Shown piece after piece: positions 1 to 32,744 of a stretch of 58,289 nucleotides of DNA; position 1 is the first letter of the stretch; every line of letters begins with the position of its first letter. Below the pieces are notes generated by a model. That model was not told the DNA's origin. It saw only the letters and a list, made by a program, of their open reading frames with translations, and searched no databases. The DNA is from an uncultured bacterium (lineage in GTDB: Bacteria > Cyanobacteriota > Vampirovibrionia > Gastranaerophilales > Gastranaerophilaceae): contig CADCKD010000011.1 of assembly GCA_902801985.1 (NCBI GenBank), positions 1 to 58,289 on the forward strand, read 5' to 3'. A program made the position numbers and the translations under genes.

Positions 1-19
1 TTATTATTTATAAATCCTT

Positions 20-98
20 GTAAAGAACTTCATACTTAGCAAACTTATCCTACTTAGCAAACTTTTTAATTAAGTTGGATAAGTACGTATAAGTTTAT
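20..98. repeat. 9-nt-unit repeat element, locus 1 (inverted arms)
   Basis: A rightward arm (about 20-65) begins GTAAAGAACTT and continues with 9-nt units of the CTTATCCTA / CTTAGCAAA type. A reverse-complement arm follows at about 72-98 (AAGTTGGATAAG...ATAAGTTT). The arms can pair as a hairpin with a very short loop. The same family recurs at 171-255, 2088-2216, 2715-2763, 3148-3195, 31372-31516 and 32479-32582. Confidence 0.75.
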
Positions 99-125
99 TA
101 TAATTTATTCAAACAAAACAGCACC

Positions 126-155
126 CCTCTTTTATCTCCCCTCACAAGGGGAGAA
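126..155. repeat. Dispersed hairpin repeat (CCTCTTTTATCTCCCCT family)
   Basis: CCTCTTTTATCTCCCCT at 126-142 is followed by a short loop and AGGGGAG, making a CTCCCCT/AGGGGAG stem. The reverse complement of the 17-mer occurs exactly at 49017-49033 between adk and pcrA, so this is a dispersed intergenic element and not a terminator peculiar to this site. Confidence 0.6.
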
Positions 156-170
156 TACTGCTAAATTCCC

Positions 171-255
171 GTAACGAACTTATCCTACCTATCCTACCTA
201 TCCTACTTATCCTACTTATCCTACCTACCTATCCTACCTATCAAACCTCCAACCT
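171..255. repeat. 9-nt-unit repeat array, locus 2
   Basis: After the flank AAATTCCCGTAACGAACT there are about eight tandem units of the CTTATCCTA / CCTATCCTA type, then a degenerate tail (TATCAAACCTCCAACCTCC). The flank AAATTCCCGTAA-GAACTTAT is shared with the array at 31470, which suggests a real element boundary. The remaining 256-366 holds a TATATAA box at 326-332 that may serve the gene at 367. Confidence 0.75.
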
Positions 256-2232: not shown

Positions 2233-2715
2233 ATGAAACAAGAGATGAACAGGTTAGAAATTTTGAACAAAATTACACCACTCATTGAAAATACCGCAAT
2301 GAGATTTAATCTTATCCCTATTGAAATCGATTTTTCTAAAGAGAATCATCGTTGGTTTTTGAGAATATTCTTATATTCAAAAGAACGCGACATAACCTTA
2401 GATGATTGTGAAAACGTAACAAGAAGTCTTGAAGGCTTTTTAGACGAACTAATTCCGGTAAAATACTACCTTGAGGTATCATCTCCTGGGTTAGAGCGCA
2501 AATTCAAATCAGAAAAAGAGTTTATCGTCTTTAAAGGACGCCGAATCAGCCTAAAACTAAAAGAACCGCTTGAAGGCGAAAGTGAAAAAATTTTCAAAGG
2601 CGAACTTGTTGACTATGACACAAATGAGGGATTAACATTCTTCCGTTTTGATGACGGGCAAGAATTACACATCCCAAAAAATAACATTCAATCAGCAAAA
2701 TTGTATATAGATTGA
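2233..2715 (+). CDS. rimP: Ribosome maturation factor RimP
   Basis: RimP binds the 30S precursor and helps its maturation. The 160-aa length and two-part architecture fit the family. An N-terminal alpha/beta domain (about 1-80) carries the hallmark stretch around residues 55-80 (LDDCENVTRSLEGFLDE, then YYLEVSSPGLER), and an SH3-like C-terminal domain (about 85-157) contains the FKGRRISLKLKEPLEG segment. It normally sits directly before nusA; here a four-helix-bundle gene is wedged between them. The ATG at 2233 follows AAAGGTCGG; an alternative ATG at 2245 exists. The upstream leader is made of the 9-nt repeat array. Confidence 0.93.
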   Translation: MKQEMNRLEILNKITPLIENTAMRFNLIPIEIDFSKENHRWFLRIFLYSKERDITLDDCENVTRSLEGFLDELIPVKYYLEVSSPGLERKFKSEKEFIVFKGRRISLKLKEPLEGESEKIFKGELVDYDTNEGLTFFRFDDGQELHIPKNNIQSAKLYID

Positions 2716-2763
2716 AGTTTGATAAGTAGGATAAGTTTGATGAGTTAGATAAGTTCTTTACAG
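2715..2763. repeat. 9-nt-unit repeat, locus 4 (left arm of inverted pair)
   Basis: This arm starts at the last base of the rimP stop codon and is in reverse orientation. Bases 2717-2741 can pair with 3159-3183: 16 contiguous pairs (2726-2741 with 3159-3174), one A-C mismatch, then 8 more. The four-helix-bundle gene is inside the loop. Confidence 0.85.
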
Positions 2764-2783
2764 ATAATTGGATAAAGATAAAT

Positions 2784-3137
2784 ATGTACTATAAAGATTT
2801 AGAAGTATATAAAAAATCAATAGAATTAGTAAAAGAAATTTACAAACTAACTGTAAATTTCCCTAAGGATGAAGTTTTTGGAATAACTTCTCAAATCAAA
2901 CGTGCAGTAATATCTATACCTTCAAATATTGCAGAAGGTTGCGCAAGATTTTCTAATAAGGATACCGCACGTTTTATTGATATCGCGCTAGGCTCAATAG
3001 CAGAAGTTGATACACAAATAACAATAGCAAAAGAATTGAATTACATAGCAGATATTGAAGGTATTTCACGGCTTTTAAATCAGGTAAACGCACTTTTACT
3101 TGGATTTAAAAAGCATTTAAACAAAAATGACGAATAA
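2784..3137 (+). CDS. Four helix bundle protein, 23S rRNA intervening-sequence (S23/IVP) family
   Basis: The 117-aa protein matches the four-helix-bundle family first found in 23S rRNA intervening sequences. The family signature is clear: FPKDEVFGITSQIKRAVISI at about residues 30-49, PSNIAEGCARFSNKD next, then a RFIDIALGSIAEVDTQ helix at about 63-79. Molecular function is unknown for most members; relatives of this fold include the Avd accessory protein of diversity-generating retroelements, but no reverse transcriptase or template repeat is visible here. The gene interrupts the rimP-nusA order and is bracketed by inverted 9-nt repeat arms. It has only a weak ribosome binding site (GGAT ten bases upstream) and overlaps no neighbour. 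Confidence 0.85.
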   Translation: MYYKDLEVYKKSIELVKEIYKLTVNFPKDEVFGITSQIKRAVISIPSNIAEGCARFSNKDTARFIDIALGSIAEVDTQITIAKELNYIADIEGISRLLNQVNALLLGFKKHLNKNDE

Positions 3138-3147
3138 GTTTAATAAC

Positions 3148-3195
3148 ATAAAGTACTTATCAAACTTATCCTACCTATCAAACCTAACAAACTTA
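3148..3195. repeat. 9-nt-unit repeat, locus 5 (right arm of inverted pair)
   Basis: Forward units ATAAAGTACTTATC, AAACTTATCCTAC, CTATCAAAC, CTAACAAACTT. It pairs with 2717-2741 across the four-helix-bundle gene and ends 5 nt before the AGGAG-type ribosome binding site of nusA. It is translatable in the nusA frame without a stop, which produces a spurious Ser/Leu/Asn-rich N-terminal extension if the upstream ATG at 3127 is chosen. Confidence 0.85.
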
Positions 3196-3213
3196 AAAAA
3201 GGAGAATAAACAA

Positions 3214-4470
3214 ATGATTAAAATCGGAGCAGGAAACTTAAATGAAGTTTTTGAAGAATTAGAAAGAGAAAAAGGTATCACAAGAGAAGTTATCGTATCG
3301 TCTTTATGCGATGCTATGGTTGCGGCGTACAAAAAACATTTACACGTAAAAGAACTTGTTAATGTTGAAGCACTATTGGACGAACAAGCAGGTGAAATCG
3401 GCATATTTAAAGGAAAAGTAGTTGTAAAAAAAGTTGAAGACGAAGAAAACGAAATTTCTTTAAAAGAAGCAAAAGAAATCGACGAAGATGTTGAATTAGG
3501 CGACGAAGTAAGACTTGAAGTTACCCCTGAACAATTCGGCAGAATAGCTGCACAAGCTGCTAACCAAGTTTTAACTCAAAGAATTAGAGAAGCGGAAAGA
3601 AACCTTGTATTGAATGAATTTCTTGATAAAAAAGGCACATTGATTACAGGTATTATTCAAAAAGTTGATGACAGAAGAAATGTTATTGTTAATATCGGTA
3701 AAATTGATGCCATTATGCCTAAAAAGGAACAAATACCCGGAGAGTTTTACAAACCTGGTAACAGAATCAGAGTTTTTGTACTTAACGTAAAAGAAACCAC
3801 AAGACTTCCTCAAGTTATCGTTTCTCACGCACACCCTGAAATCGTTAGAGAATTATTTGAACTTGAAGTACCTGAAATTGAAGACGGAATTGTTGAAATC
3901 AAATCAATTTCTCGTGAAGCAGGTTACAGAACAAAAATTGCTGTATGGTCAAATGACCCTGAAGTTGACTCAGTTGGCGCATGTATCGGGCCAAGAGGTG
4001 CAAGAATTCAGACTATCGTTTCAGAATTAAAGAACGAAAAAATTGATATAGTAAGATATTCACTTGATCCGGTTGAATATATCGTAAATTCACTTTCACC
4101 TGCAAGAGTTGTATCTGTTGATATTATGGCAGATGATGAATTTGCTCACGAAGCATTGGTTGTTGTTCCGAATGACCAACTTTCACTTGCAATCGGTCGT
4201 GAAGGTCAAAACGTAAGACTTGCTCATAAATTGACCAACTGGAAAATTGATATCAAATCTGTTGCTCAAATGGAAGAAGCAGAAGCTCAAGGACGTCAAT
4301 ACGAACCAAGCTTTGAAGAAGAAACTGAAGAAGCAGGTGAAGATATAATGGATTCAGAAGAACTTCAACAAGAAATTGAAGAAGAGATGAACCAACAAGC
4401 TTATGATGAGGAAGACCTTCAAGCCGCAGAAGAAGCTGATGAAGCCGGTGAAGAATCAGAAGAAGAATAA
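3214..4470 (+). CDS. nusA: Transcription termination/antitermination factor NusA
   Basis: NusA binds RNA polymerase and nascent RNA and modulates pausing, termination and antitermination. Domains in order over 418 residues: N-terminal RNAP-binding domain (about 1-125), S1 domain (about 130-200, with ITGIIQKVDDRRNVIVNIG), KH1 and KH2 (about 200-350, including GACIGPRGARIQTIV and LAIGREGQNVRLA), then a Glu-rich acidic tail of about 60 residues. I start it at 3214 because AAAAAAGGAGAATAAACAA precedes that ATG; the in-frame ATG at 3127 would translate the repeat array. No ylxR or infB follows; a terminator does. Confidence 0.95.
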   Translation: MIKIGAGNLNEVFEELEREKGITREVIVSSLCDAMVAAYKKHLHVKELVNVEALLDEQAGEIGIFKGKVVVKKVEDEENEISLKEAKEIDEDVELGDEVRLEVTPEQFGRIAAQAANQVLTQRIREAERNLVLNEFLDKKGTLITGIIQKVDDRRNVIVNIGKIDAIMPKKEQIPGEFYKPGNRIRVFVLNVKETTRLPQVIVSHAHPEIVRELFELEVPEIEDGIVEIKSISREAGYRTKIAVWSNDPEVDSVGACIGPRGARIQTIVSELKNEKIDIVRYSLDPVEYIVNSLSPARVVSVDIMADDEFAHEALVVVPNDQLSLAIGREGQNVRLAHKLTNWKIDIKSVAQMEEAEAQGRQYEPSFEEETEEAGEDIMDSEELQQEIEEEMNQQAYDEEDLQAAEEADEAGEESEEE

Positions 4471-31371: not shown

Positions 31372-31516
31372 AAGGTTTGATAGGTTTGATAAGTTAGTTA
31401 AGTTTGATTAGTTCATATCAGTCATTTAGTTTTTAATAATTGCCCGGCTATTAAGCGATTTTAAATTCCCGTAAAGAACTTATTCTACTTATCTTACTTA
31501 TCCTACATGCCAAACT
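31372..31516. repeat. 9-nt-unit repeat element, locus 6, between nusG and rplK
   Basis: A reverse arm at 31372-31415 (GGTTTGATAGGTTTGATAAG...) and a forward arm at 31470-31516 (GTAAAGAACTTATTCTACTT, then TCTTACTTATCCTAC) are separated by about 55 nt. Flanks AAATTCCCGTAA-GAACTTAT and TTTATTATAATTTATT are shared with loci 2 and 1. The right end runs up to the nusG stop codon. Confidence 0.75.
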
Positions 31517-31519
31517 TTA

Positions 31520-32137
31520 TTATAATTTATTTATTTGGTTATATTCCAATTCAACAGGCGTTTCACGGCCAAAGATTGAAACATTTGCACGAATCTTAGA
31601 TTTGTCAGGGTAAACTTCAATGATATCTGCATCAAAGTCTGCAAATGGTCCTGATACAATTCTAATTTTATCGCCAACTTTAACATCAAGTTCAACTTTT
31701 TCAACTTGAGATGATGTTCTGTGTAATATTCTTTTGATTTCGCTTTCACGAACAGGTATAGGCTTTTTAACAGAACCGACAAATTTAGAAACACCGGAAG
31801 TGTGTCTAACAACGTACCAGCTGTCTTCGTCCATAATCATTTCAACAAGTACATAGCCAGGGAATATTTTTTCTTCTTTTTCTTGTTTTTTCCCACCCTT
31901 TACTTGTACAACAGTTTTTTGAGGGACTTCGACTCTAAAAATCTTATCACCCATATTCATGTATTCGATACGTTTTTCAAGGTTGACTTTAACCTTGTTT
32001 TCATACCCTGAATAAGTATGAACAATGTACCATCTTTTTTGACTTTTTTTAGATTCTTTTTCTTCAGCTTCCATTGCTTTTTCTTGAGCAATATCTTCGT
32101 TTAGCTGTTCTTCCATTGTTTTTTCTCTTTTTGCCAT
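31520..32137 (-). CDS. nusG: Transcription termination/antitermination protein NusG
   Basis: A 205-aa NusG that links RNA polymerase to Rho or to the ribosome. A charged 32-residue extension precedes the NGN domain (about 35-145: RWYIVHTYSGYENKVKVNLE, FPGYVLVEMIMDEDSWYVVR, GVSKFVG). The KOW domain follows (about 150-205: VGDKIRIVSGPFADFDADII). secE lies immediately upstream. The stop codon abuts repeat locus 6. Confidence 0.97.
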   Translation of the reverse strand: MAKREKTMEEQLNEDIAQEKAMEAEEKESKKSQKRWYIVHTYSGYENKVKVNLEKRIEYMNMGDKIFRVEVPQKTVVQVKGGKKQEKEEKIFPGYVLVEMIMDEDSWYVVRHTSGVSKFVGSVKKPIPVRESEIKRILHRTSSQVEKVELDVKVGDKIRIVSGPFADFDADIIEVYPDKSKIRANVSIFGRETPVELEYNQINKL

Positions 32138-32388: not shown

Positions 32389-32461
32389 CGCGCCCTGAAG
32401 GACTCGAACCCTCGACATCCGGTTTTGGAGACCGACGTTCTACCAACTGAACTAAGGACGC
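32389..32461 (-). tRNA. trnW: tRNA-Trp (anticodon CCA)
   Basis: On the minus strand the acceptor arms GCGTCCT and AGGGCGC pair (with one G-U), followed by discriminator G; CCA is not encoded. The anticodon stem CGGT/ACCG encloses loop CTCCAAA with anticodon CCA, and the T arm contains GGTTCGAGTCC. It lies between rpmG and secE and is probably processed from their common transcript. Confidence 0.95.
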
Positions 32462-32478
32462 AAATGTCGCAGATTGGC

Positions 32479-32582
32479 AAGTTTATAAGTTTGATAGGTT
32501 TGATAAGTAATTTTCAGTTTTTTATCTTTGACTTATAAAAACTTCCTACTTATCTAACCTATCCTACTTATCCTACTTACTT
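32479..32582. repeat. 9-nt-unit repeat element, locus 7, between rpmG and tRNA-Trp
   Basis: Reverse arm 32479-32510 and forward arm about 32550-32582 are inverted repeats: ACTTATC-AACCTATC--ACTTAT matches at 21 of 24 positions. The resulting hairpin would lie between the rpmG coding region and the tRNA. The forward arm includes the rpmG stop codon. Confidence 0.8.
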
Positions 32583-32744
32583 AGTTTCCTTATGTACAGT
32601 ATGTTTTTTGCACTTAGGACAATATTTATTCAACTCCATTCTTTCTTTTAGAGTCTTTTTGTTTTTTGTTGTAGTGTAGTTTCTTTCTTTGCAATCTTCG
32701 CATGCAAGAACTACCATTTTGTCATTTTTTCCTTTGATACCCAT
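32577..32744 (-). CDS. rpmG: 50S ribosomal protein L33
   Basis: A 55-aa L33 with two Cys pairs for zinc: [11 protein letters not shown] at about 13-23 and [14 protein letters not shown] at the end. Start ATG at 32744 after AAAGGAAATAAAAC. It opens the rpmG-tRNATrp-secE-nusG-rplK-rplA block. The last codons and the TAA stop lie in the beginning of a repeat array, so the array borders or has overwritten the 3' end. Confidence 0.93.

Follow-up and report, generated by a model that had tools for sequence, protein, structure and literature searches.

What does a gene of the S23/IVP family represent when it lies between two protein-coding genes and is enclosed by inverted sequences? Intervening sequences (IVS) of 23S rRNA which carry an S23p ORF are known in Coxiella and Leptospira; the rRNA helices in which IVS lie are 9, 25 or 45. 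The family itself (PF05635) is common in bacteria, and we know of no role established for it. The case considered here was found in a stretch of 58,289 nt (hereafter the window) from an uncultured member of the Gastranaerophilaceae, whose genome is referred to as G000.

The cassette between rimP and nusA

Three genes, all on the + strand, make up the locus: rimP, the upstream host gene (2233-2715, RimP_N and DUF150_C profile matches); the S23/IVP gene (2784-3137), which encodes a four-helix-bundle protein of 117 aa; and nusA, the downstream host gene (3214-4470), recognized by profile matches and with a start backed by the junctions of relatives. In profile searches the S23 product matches PF05635 at E 5.1e-36, above the cut-off, which confirms the gene assignment proposed in an earlier note on this DNA, and TIGR02436 at E 4.5e-34; PDB 2gsc is a relative of the protein. 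A search of the whole genome returned this gene as its single PF05635 match. The nusA ribosome-binding site (about 3199-3205) is preserved despite the insertion of the cassette. From 3127 to 3213 the 3' arm is open in the nusA reading frame, and automatic annotation may therefore place the NusA start too early, within the S23 gene. Upstream of rimP, positions 367-1929 encode a coiled-coil-like protein of 520 aa without Pfam match.

The 5' arm (2715-2758, + strand) begins on the final base of the rimP stop codon (2715) and is composed of 9-nt direct repeats, AAGTTTGAT/AAGTAGGAT/AAGTTTGAT/GAGTTAGAT/AAGTTC. The 3' arm (3142-3183, + strand), also built of 9-nt direct repeats, is an inverted copy of it: 2717-2758 pairs with 3142-3183 over 42 nt with 81% complementarity, and a further unit-like stretch lies beyond, up to about 3195. 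The pairing of 2717-2741 with 3159-3183 which had first been noticed (8 bp and 16 bp on either side of one mismatch) is exact, the arms being in fact longer than that. Their alignment score of 48 was reached in 0 of 2000 dinucleotide shuffles, for which the maximum was 31. Scans for promoters and terminators around the cassette gave chance-level output, and no terminator was found.

The rimP-nusA junction was readable in 41 genomes of the window's genus. In 31 of them it is short, measuring 14 to about 65 nt, and contains neither a gene nor an arm pair; the 5' arm of the window is absent from these empty-site relatives. S23 occupies the junction in 7 genomes (in one of them at a contig end), a GIY-YIG gene takes the S23 slot in 2 (G062 and G026), and another repeat is present in 1. 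Short inverted repeats (CGTCATTCAGAG) lie on either side of the GIY-YIG gene, whose identity was confirmed, and the two genomes are close to S23 carriers. Short arm-like remnants persist in two of the empty genomes, G064 and G065. Empty sites were also found in close relatives at three further S23 loci of the genus, and the alignment is clean at two of these, gene and arms both missing. As gene and arms are absent jointly, the insertion comprises arm, gene and arm. The earlier note was thus right about the anatomy, an IVS-like cassette inserted between rimP and nusA, and the empty-site comparison that it called for showed arms which come and go with the gene, at this junction (31 of 41) and, in very close relatives, at a second and a third locus. 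Arms as pre-existing targets of insertion are ruled out at sites whose empty relatives show no arm pair. Outside the genus, six genomes from other genera of the family also have S23 at the rimP-nusA junction.

Inverted arms and dispersed arrays in other genomes

S23 loci were drawn from relatives, from named genomes of many phyla and from the window's phylum. For each locus we scored the best inverted match between the 250 nt upstream and the 250 nt downstream of the gene, the null being obtained by swapping flanks between loci; these scores refer to flanks fixed at 250 nt and to start codons assigned automatically. In the first set (115 S23 loci, many phyla), the locus's own partner flank was in the top 5% of swaps in 83 cases and was the single best in 53. 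The corresponding figures were 67 and 41 of 75 in a second set, fetched once the discovery set had been analysed. The median pairing score of S23 loci was 30 with their own flanks versus 16 with swapped ones, and a score of at least 32 was attained by 47.5% of S23 loci versus 3.8% of 132 control genes which neighbour them on the same contigs (p 4e-18). About a quarter of the S23 loci of the broad set are without clear arms. Ten control genes score at least 28, among them one second S23 gene and one DUF559 gene. The latter, a nuclease-like gene of Geobacter sp. AOG1 (L064:4666-5106), lies within inverted arms of 38 nt which score 51, a hint at dispersed-repeat elements belonging to other small genes as well. 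No rRNA was found at any of the 40 S23 loci scanned with Rfam.

The arms consist of arrayed units of 7, 8 or 9 nt, with periods mostly of 7 (and 14) and 8 and some of 9. The 5' arms are rich in G, the G:C counts being 772:261 in the first set and 942:222 in the second. An arm sequence common to all S23 loci was rejected, as arms differ locus by locus; the suggestion that other S23 genes might be flanked by the same arms therefore holds for their kind and fails for their sequence, the repeat unit differing at each locus. The same is seen among twelve rimP-nusA cassettes, which differ in arm sequence, yet L145 and L147 are near-copies. In these twelve, own arms score 60 on average versus 25 for swapped arms, and 0 of 100,000 permutations reach the observed sum of own-arm scores. 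What changes from one cassette to another is whole repeat units and not single compensatory pairs.

Array counts were obtained over 46 genomes of the genus by pattern searches with single arm units. The picture is near-diagonal, each unit being mostly confined to its own carrier genome. The GATAAGT unit (a 9-nt unit) has 42 exact matches in G000; TAAGACCG has 20 in G008 and 0 in the other 45 genomes; TAAGTAG has 10 in G005 and 5 in G033. For GTGAATNA (10 matches in G031, 5 in G065) the evidence is weaker, because the reversed-pattern control also gave some matches. Every carrier genome tested holds dispersed arrays of its own arm unit; G022 is an exception, with 23 array matches and no S23 detected. 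Arrays resembling its own S23 arms also occur elsewhere in the genome of Geobacter sp. AOG1. The arrays of G000 are largely inverted pairs, gene-less, with loops of about 60 nt.

Several of them are visible in the window (listed without strand). The repeat-unit search located at 2083-2213, between an upstream terminator and rimP, a hairpin which encloses no gene and shares the repeat family of the S23 arms; in G011 and G020 no such hairpin was seen ahead of rimP. Another, of the 9-nt family, lies at 31374-31521 (arms of about 44 nt, loop of about 61 nt), and a third at 32478-32585 adjoins a tRNA gene (32389-32461). At the left end of the window (15-250), arrays of the S23-arm unit are found in both orientations, interleaved with another repeat. 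A second dispersed repeat family, of CCCCTCACAAGGGGAG type, occurs beside or inside 9-nt hairpins (121-160 of the window; L219, L232 and L234).

Possible spread, turnover and upkeep of the arms

On balance, if narrowly, we favour the explanation that the feature of the window represents a dispersed or mobile hairpin element in its gene-bearing form, the gene being S23; the rRNA IVS would be a special case. Several observations weigh against it: the lack of a clear target-site duplication at the genus sites, the terminal repeats around the G180 unit, the spread of the rimP-nusA cassette over several genera, the arrays of G022 in which no S23 was detected, the quarter or so of broad-set loci without clear arms, and the similar orientation of control genes.

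The patchy occurrence of the cassette, its empty sites and its multiplication in one genome suggest mobility, as far as sequence comparison goes. G180, a cyanobacterium-like genome, contains ten S23 copies which are 97-99% identical and lie at different sites. These copies (loci L167-L178) sit inside 15-16-nt terminal repeats AACTGAYGTTACGCA, which are also present without S23 (30 motif matches), so another transposase may have moved the unit. In the copies L172 and L178 a nested gene-less hairpin has repeated AAATAAT on its flanks. Mobility, as supposed at the outset, is thus suggested. At the genus loci the target site shows A/T-rich junctions (sites A and B) and no clear duplication.

Between G000 and G005, at the same rimP-nusA site, the S23 proteins are 65% identical versus 97% and 96% for RimP and NusA, a divergence which would be consistent with a turnover of cassettes or with a fast-evolving gene. 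Synonymous distances come close to saturation, and the S23 tree has too little resolution to separate a single origin from repeated insertion when set against the species tree. Several genera of the family have the rimP-nusA cassette, which may therefore be old, vertically inherited and often lost.

At which level are the arms kept complementary? Selection for an RNA stem on the S23 sense strand is expected to leave an excess of G.U over A.C mismatches. We counted 60 G.U and 88 A.C in the first set, 74 and 69 in the second, and 134 and 157 combined (p 0.20), i.e. no significant wobble excess in either set, and the arms consequently look maintained at the DNA level. This mismatch pattern argues against slow RNA-level compensation and for DNA-level copying; RNA processing may nevertheless take place. 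As for transcription, 96 loci could be scored: S23 runs in the direction of both neighbours at 82 of them and is antisense to both at 5, and the element therefore probably relies on host transcription. Ordinary control genes on the same contigs show a similar sense pattern (62 of 81), which weakens the idea of an orientation bias unique to S23.

These observations bear on the view that the cassette is an intervening sequence of an mRNA: the arms would pair in a rimP-S23-nusA transcript, RNase III would cut the stem and separate the messages, and selection for RNA pairing would keep the arms complementary. The predicted RNA, if transcribed, does form the stem in its minimum-energy fold (z = -4.3 versus shuffles), the prevailing sense orientation means that the arms are probably transcribed, and by analogy with the S23-bearing IVS of Coxiella, where excision by RNase III is known (PMC4990558), cleavage is conceivable. 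Complementarity selected in RNA should however have left the missing wobble excess, and the replacement of whole units in place of compensatory pairs speaks against it too, as does the lack of rRNA at the 40 scanned loci. We consider this view unlikely, and the processing switch envisaged in the earlier note, or an excision by RNase III, is unsupported as a function.

S23 might also be a passenger, riding between arrays which owe their formation and spread to host slippage, to recombination or to unrelated transposases, with no part in the process. The unrelated terminal repeats around the G180 unit, the arrays of G022 and the GIY-YIG and DUF559 genes likewise placed between short inverted repeats would all be compatible with this. 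Against it stand the association of gene and arms across phyla, the match between arm units and dispersed arrays in every carrier tested, and the empty sites without arms, which indicate that arms are not pre-existing targets; we judge it improbable to a similar degree. That S23 is a long-standing, domesticated gene of the rimP-nusA operon which serves the host, its hairpin being a regulatory or mRNA-stability structure, is very improbable: several genera do carry it at this site, and in the sense orientation of ordinary operon genes, but it is present at just 7 of 41 congeneric junctions, differs strongly between sister species whose flanking genes are 96-97% identical, and occupies other, variable sites in other genomes.

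Comparison with known elements and proposed mechanism

In Coxiella the IVS of 23S rRNA measures 428 nt; it carries an S23p ORF between complementary borders and is cut by RNase III (PMC4990558). The cassette of the window shares with such IVS an S23/IVP gene of about 350 nt, a unit length of about 430-480 nt, complementary arms at its borders and a sporadic occurrence. It differs from them in lying between two protein genes, with no rRNA in the window, in its tandem 7-9-nt arms and in the matching gene-less hairpins dispersed in the genome.

The arms also recall bacterial heptamer repeats, whose units are GGGAATC in Xanthomonas, GGGGA(C/T)T in Nostoc and TAACTGA in Beggiatoaceae. Such tandem repeats have been reported for decades and, to our knowledge, there is no agreed origin for them. 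Xanthomonas genomes contain 70-75 convergent inverted pairs each (PMC4692102), and the TAACTGA repeats were reported without mention of S23 (PMC4679880). Heptamers and S23 arms alike form intergenic arrays of 7-nt units, and the polarity of the Xanthomonas inverted pairs equals that of the S23 arms. As in STRR (intergenic 7-nt or 8-9-nt arrays dispersed in one genome), the 9-nt unit recurs through G000. Unlike the heptamers, with which the published accounts that we searched associate no protein gene, the arrays of S23 loci enclose the S23 gene. No earlier description of a link between S23 and repeats was found in the open-access literature that the search covered.

With MITE and REP palindromes the family shares short gene-less intergenic hairpins accompanied by one gene-bearing relative. 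It differs from them in that the S23 unit has no transposase or RAYT gene and its tandem-repeat arms vary by species. The conserved shared terminal inverted repeats of MITEs and DNA transposons are lacking, as arms differ by locus and species (the G180 composite excepted), and no conserved terminal sequence was found in the window's genus. A further comparison concerns diversity-generating retroelements (DGR), which consist of a reverse transcriptase with template and variable repeats. The S23 protein gives weak matches to profiles of the DGR accessory protein Avd (bAvd E 8e-4, DivGenRetAVD E 8e-5, both below curated cut-offs), so the two may belong to one superfamily, a homology which has been argued elsewhere (PMC10053308). 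Unlike Avd, the cassette has rimP and nusA as neighbours and not a reverse transcriptase.

For the dispersed or mobile hairpin element favoured above, we propose the following mechanism. The unit comprises the 5' arm (the G-rich strand of a 7-9-nt tandem array), the S23 gene and the 3' arm (the inverted array); it lies in sense between co-directional genes and is probably expressed from the host transcript. Gene-less hairpins with the S23-arm unit elsewhere in the genome would be its non-autonomous relatives. The S23 protein, a putative Avd relative, may bind the hairpin formed by the repeat arms, either in single-stranded DNA or in a cruciform, while the DNA is replicated or transcribed, and could promote the copying of this hairpin and, in trans, of gene-less ones into new intergenic sites. 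Slippage would reshape the tandem units and one arm would template the other; arms would therefore diverge fast between species and stay complementary within a copy. A 23S rRNA IVS would be such a unit which landed in a tolerant rRNA helix.

The S23 gene-plus-arms unit suggests a dispersed or mobile element of a class not described before. More tentatively, and with less expectation that it will hold, S23/IVP could define a bacteria-wide class of hairpin elements with a new, transposase-free way of spreading on tandem-repeat hairpins, heptamer repeats being their arms and gene-less derivatives and rRNA IVS those members which landed in rRNA. PF05635 is named after what appears to be a minority setting, as none of the 40 scanned loci is near rRNA. 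A link between S23 and heptamers would provide each of them with an identity open to test, in which a single protein goes with a single DNA or RNA ligand and a single kind of unit. Arms which change completely yet stay complementary offer a natural case bearing on how hairpins are copied and maintained in bacterial genomes, and the S23 unit may account for a family of bacterial repeats which has long been a puzzle.
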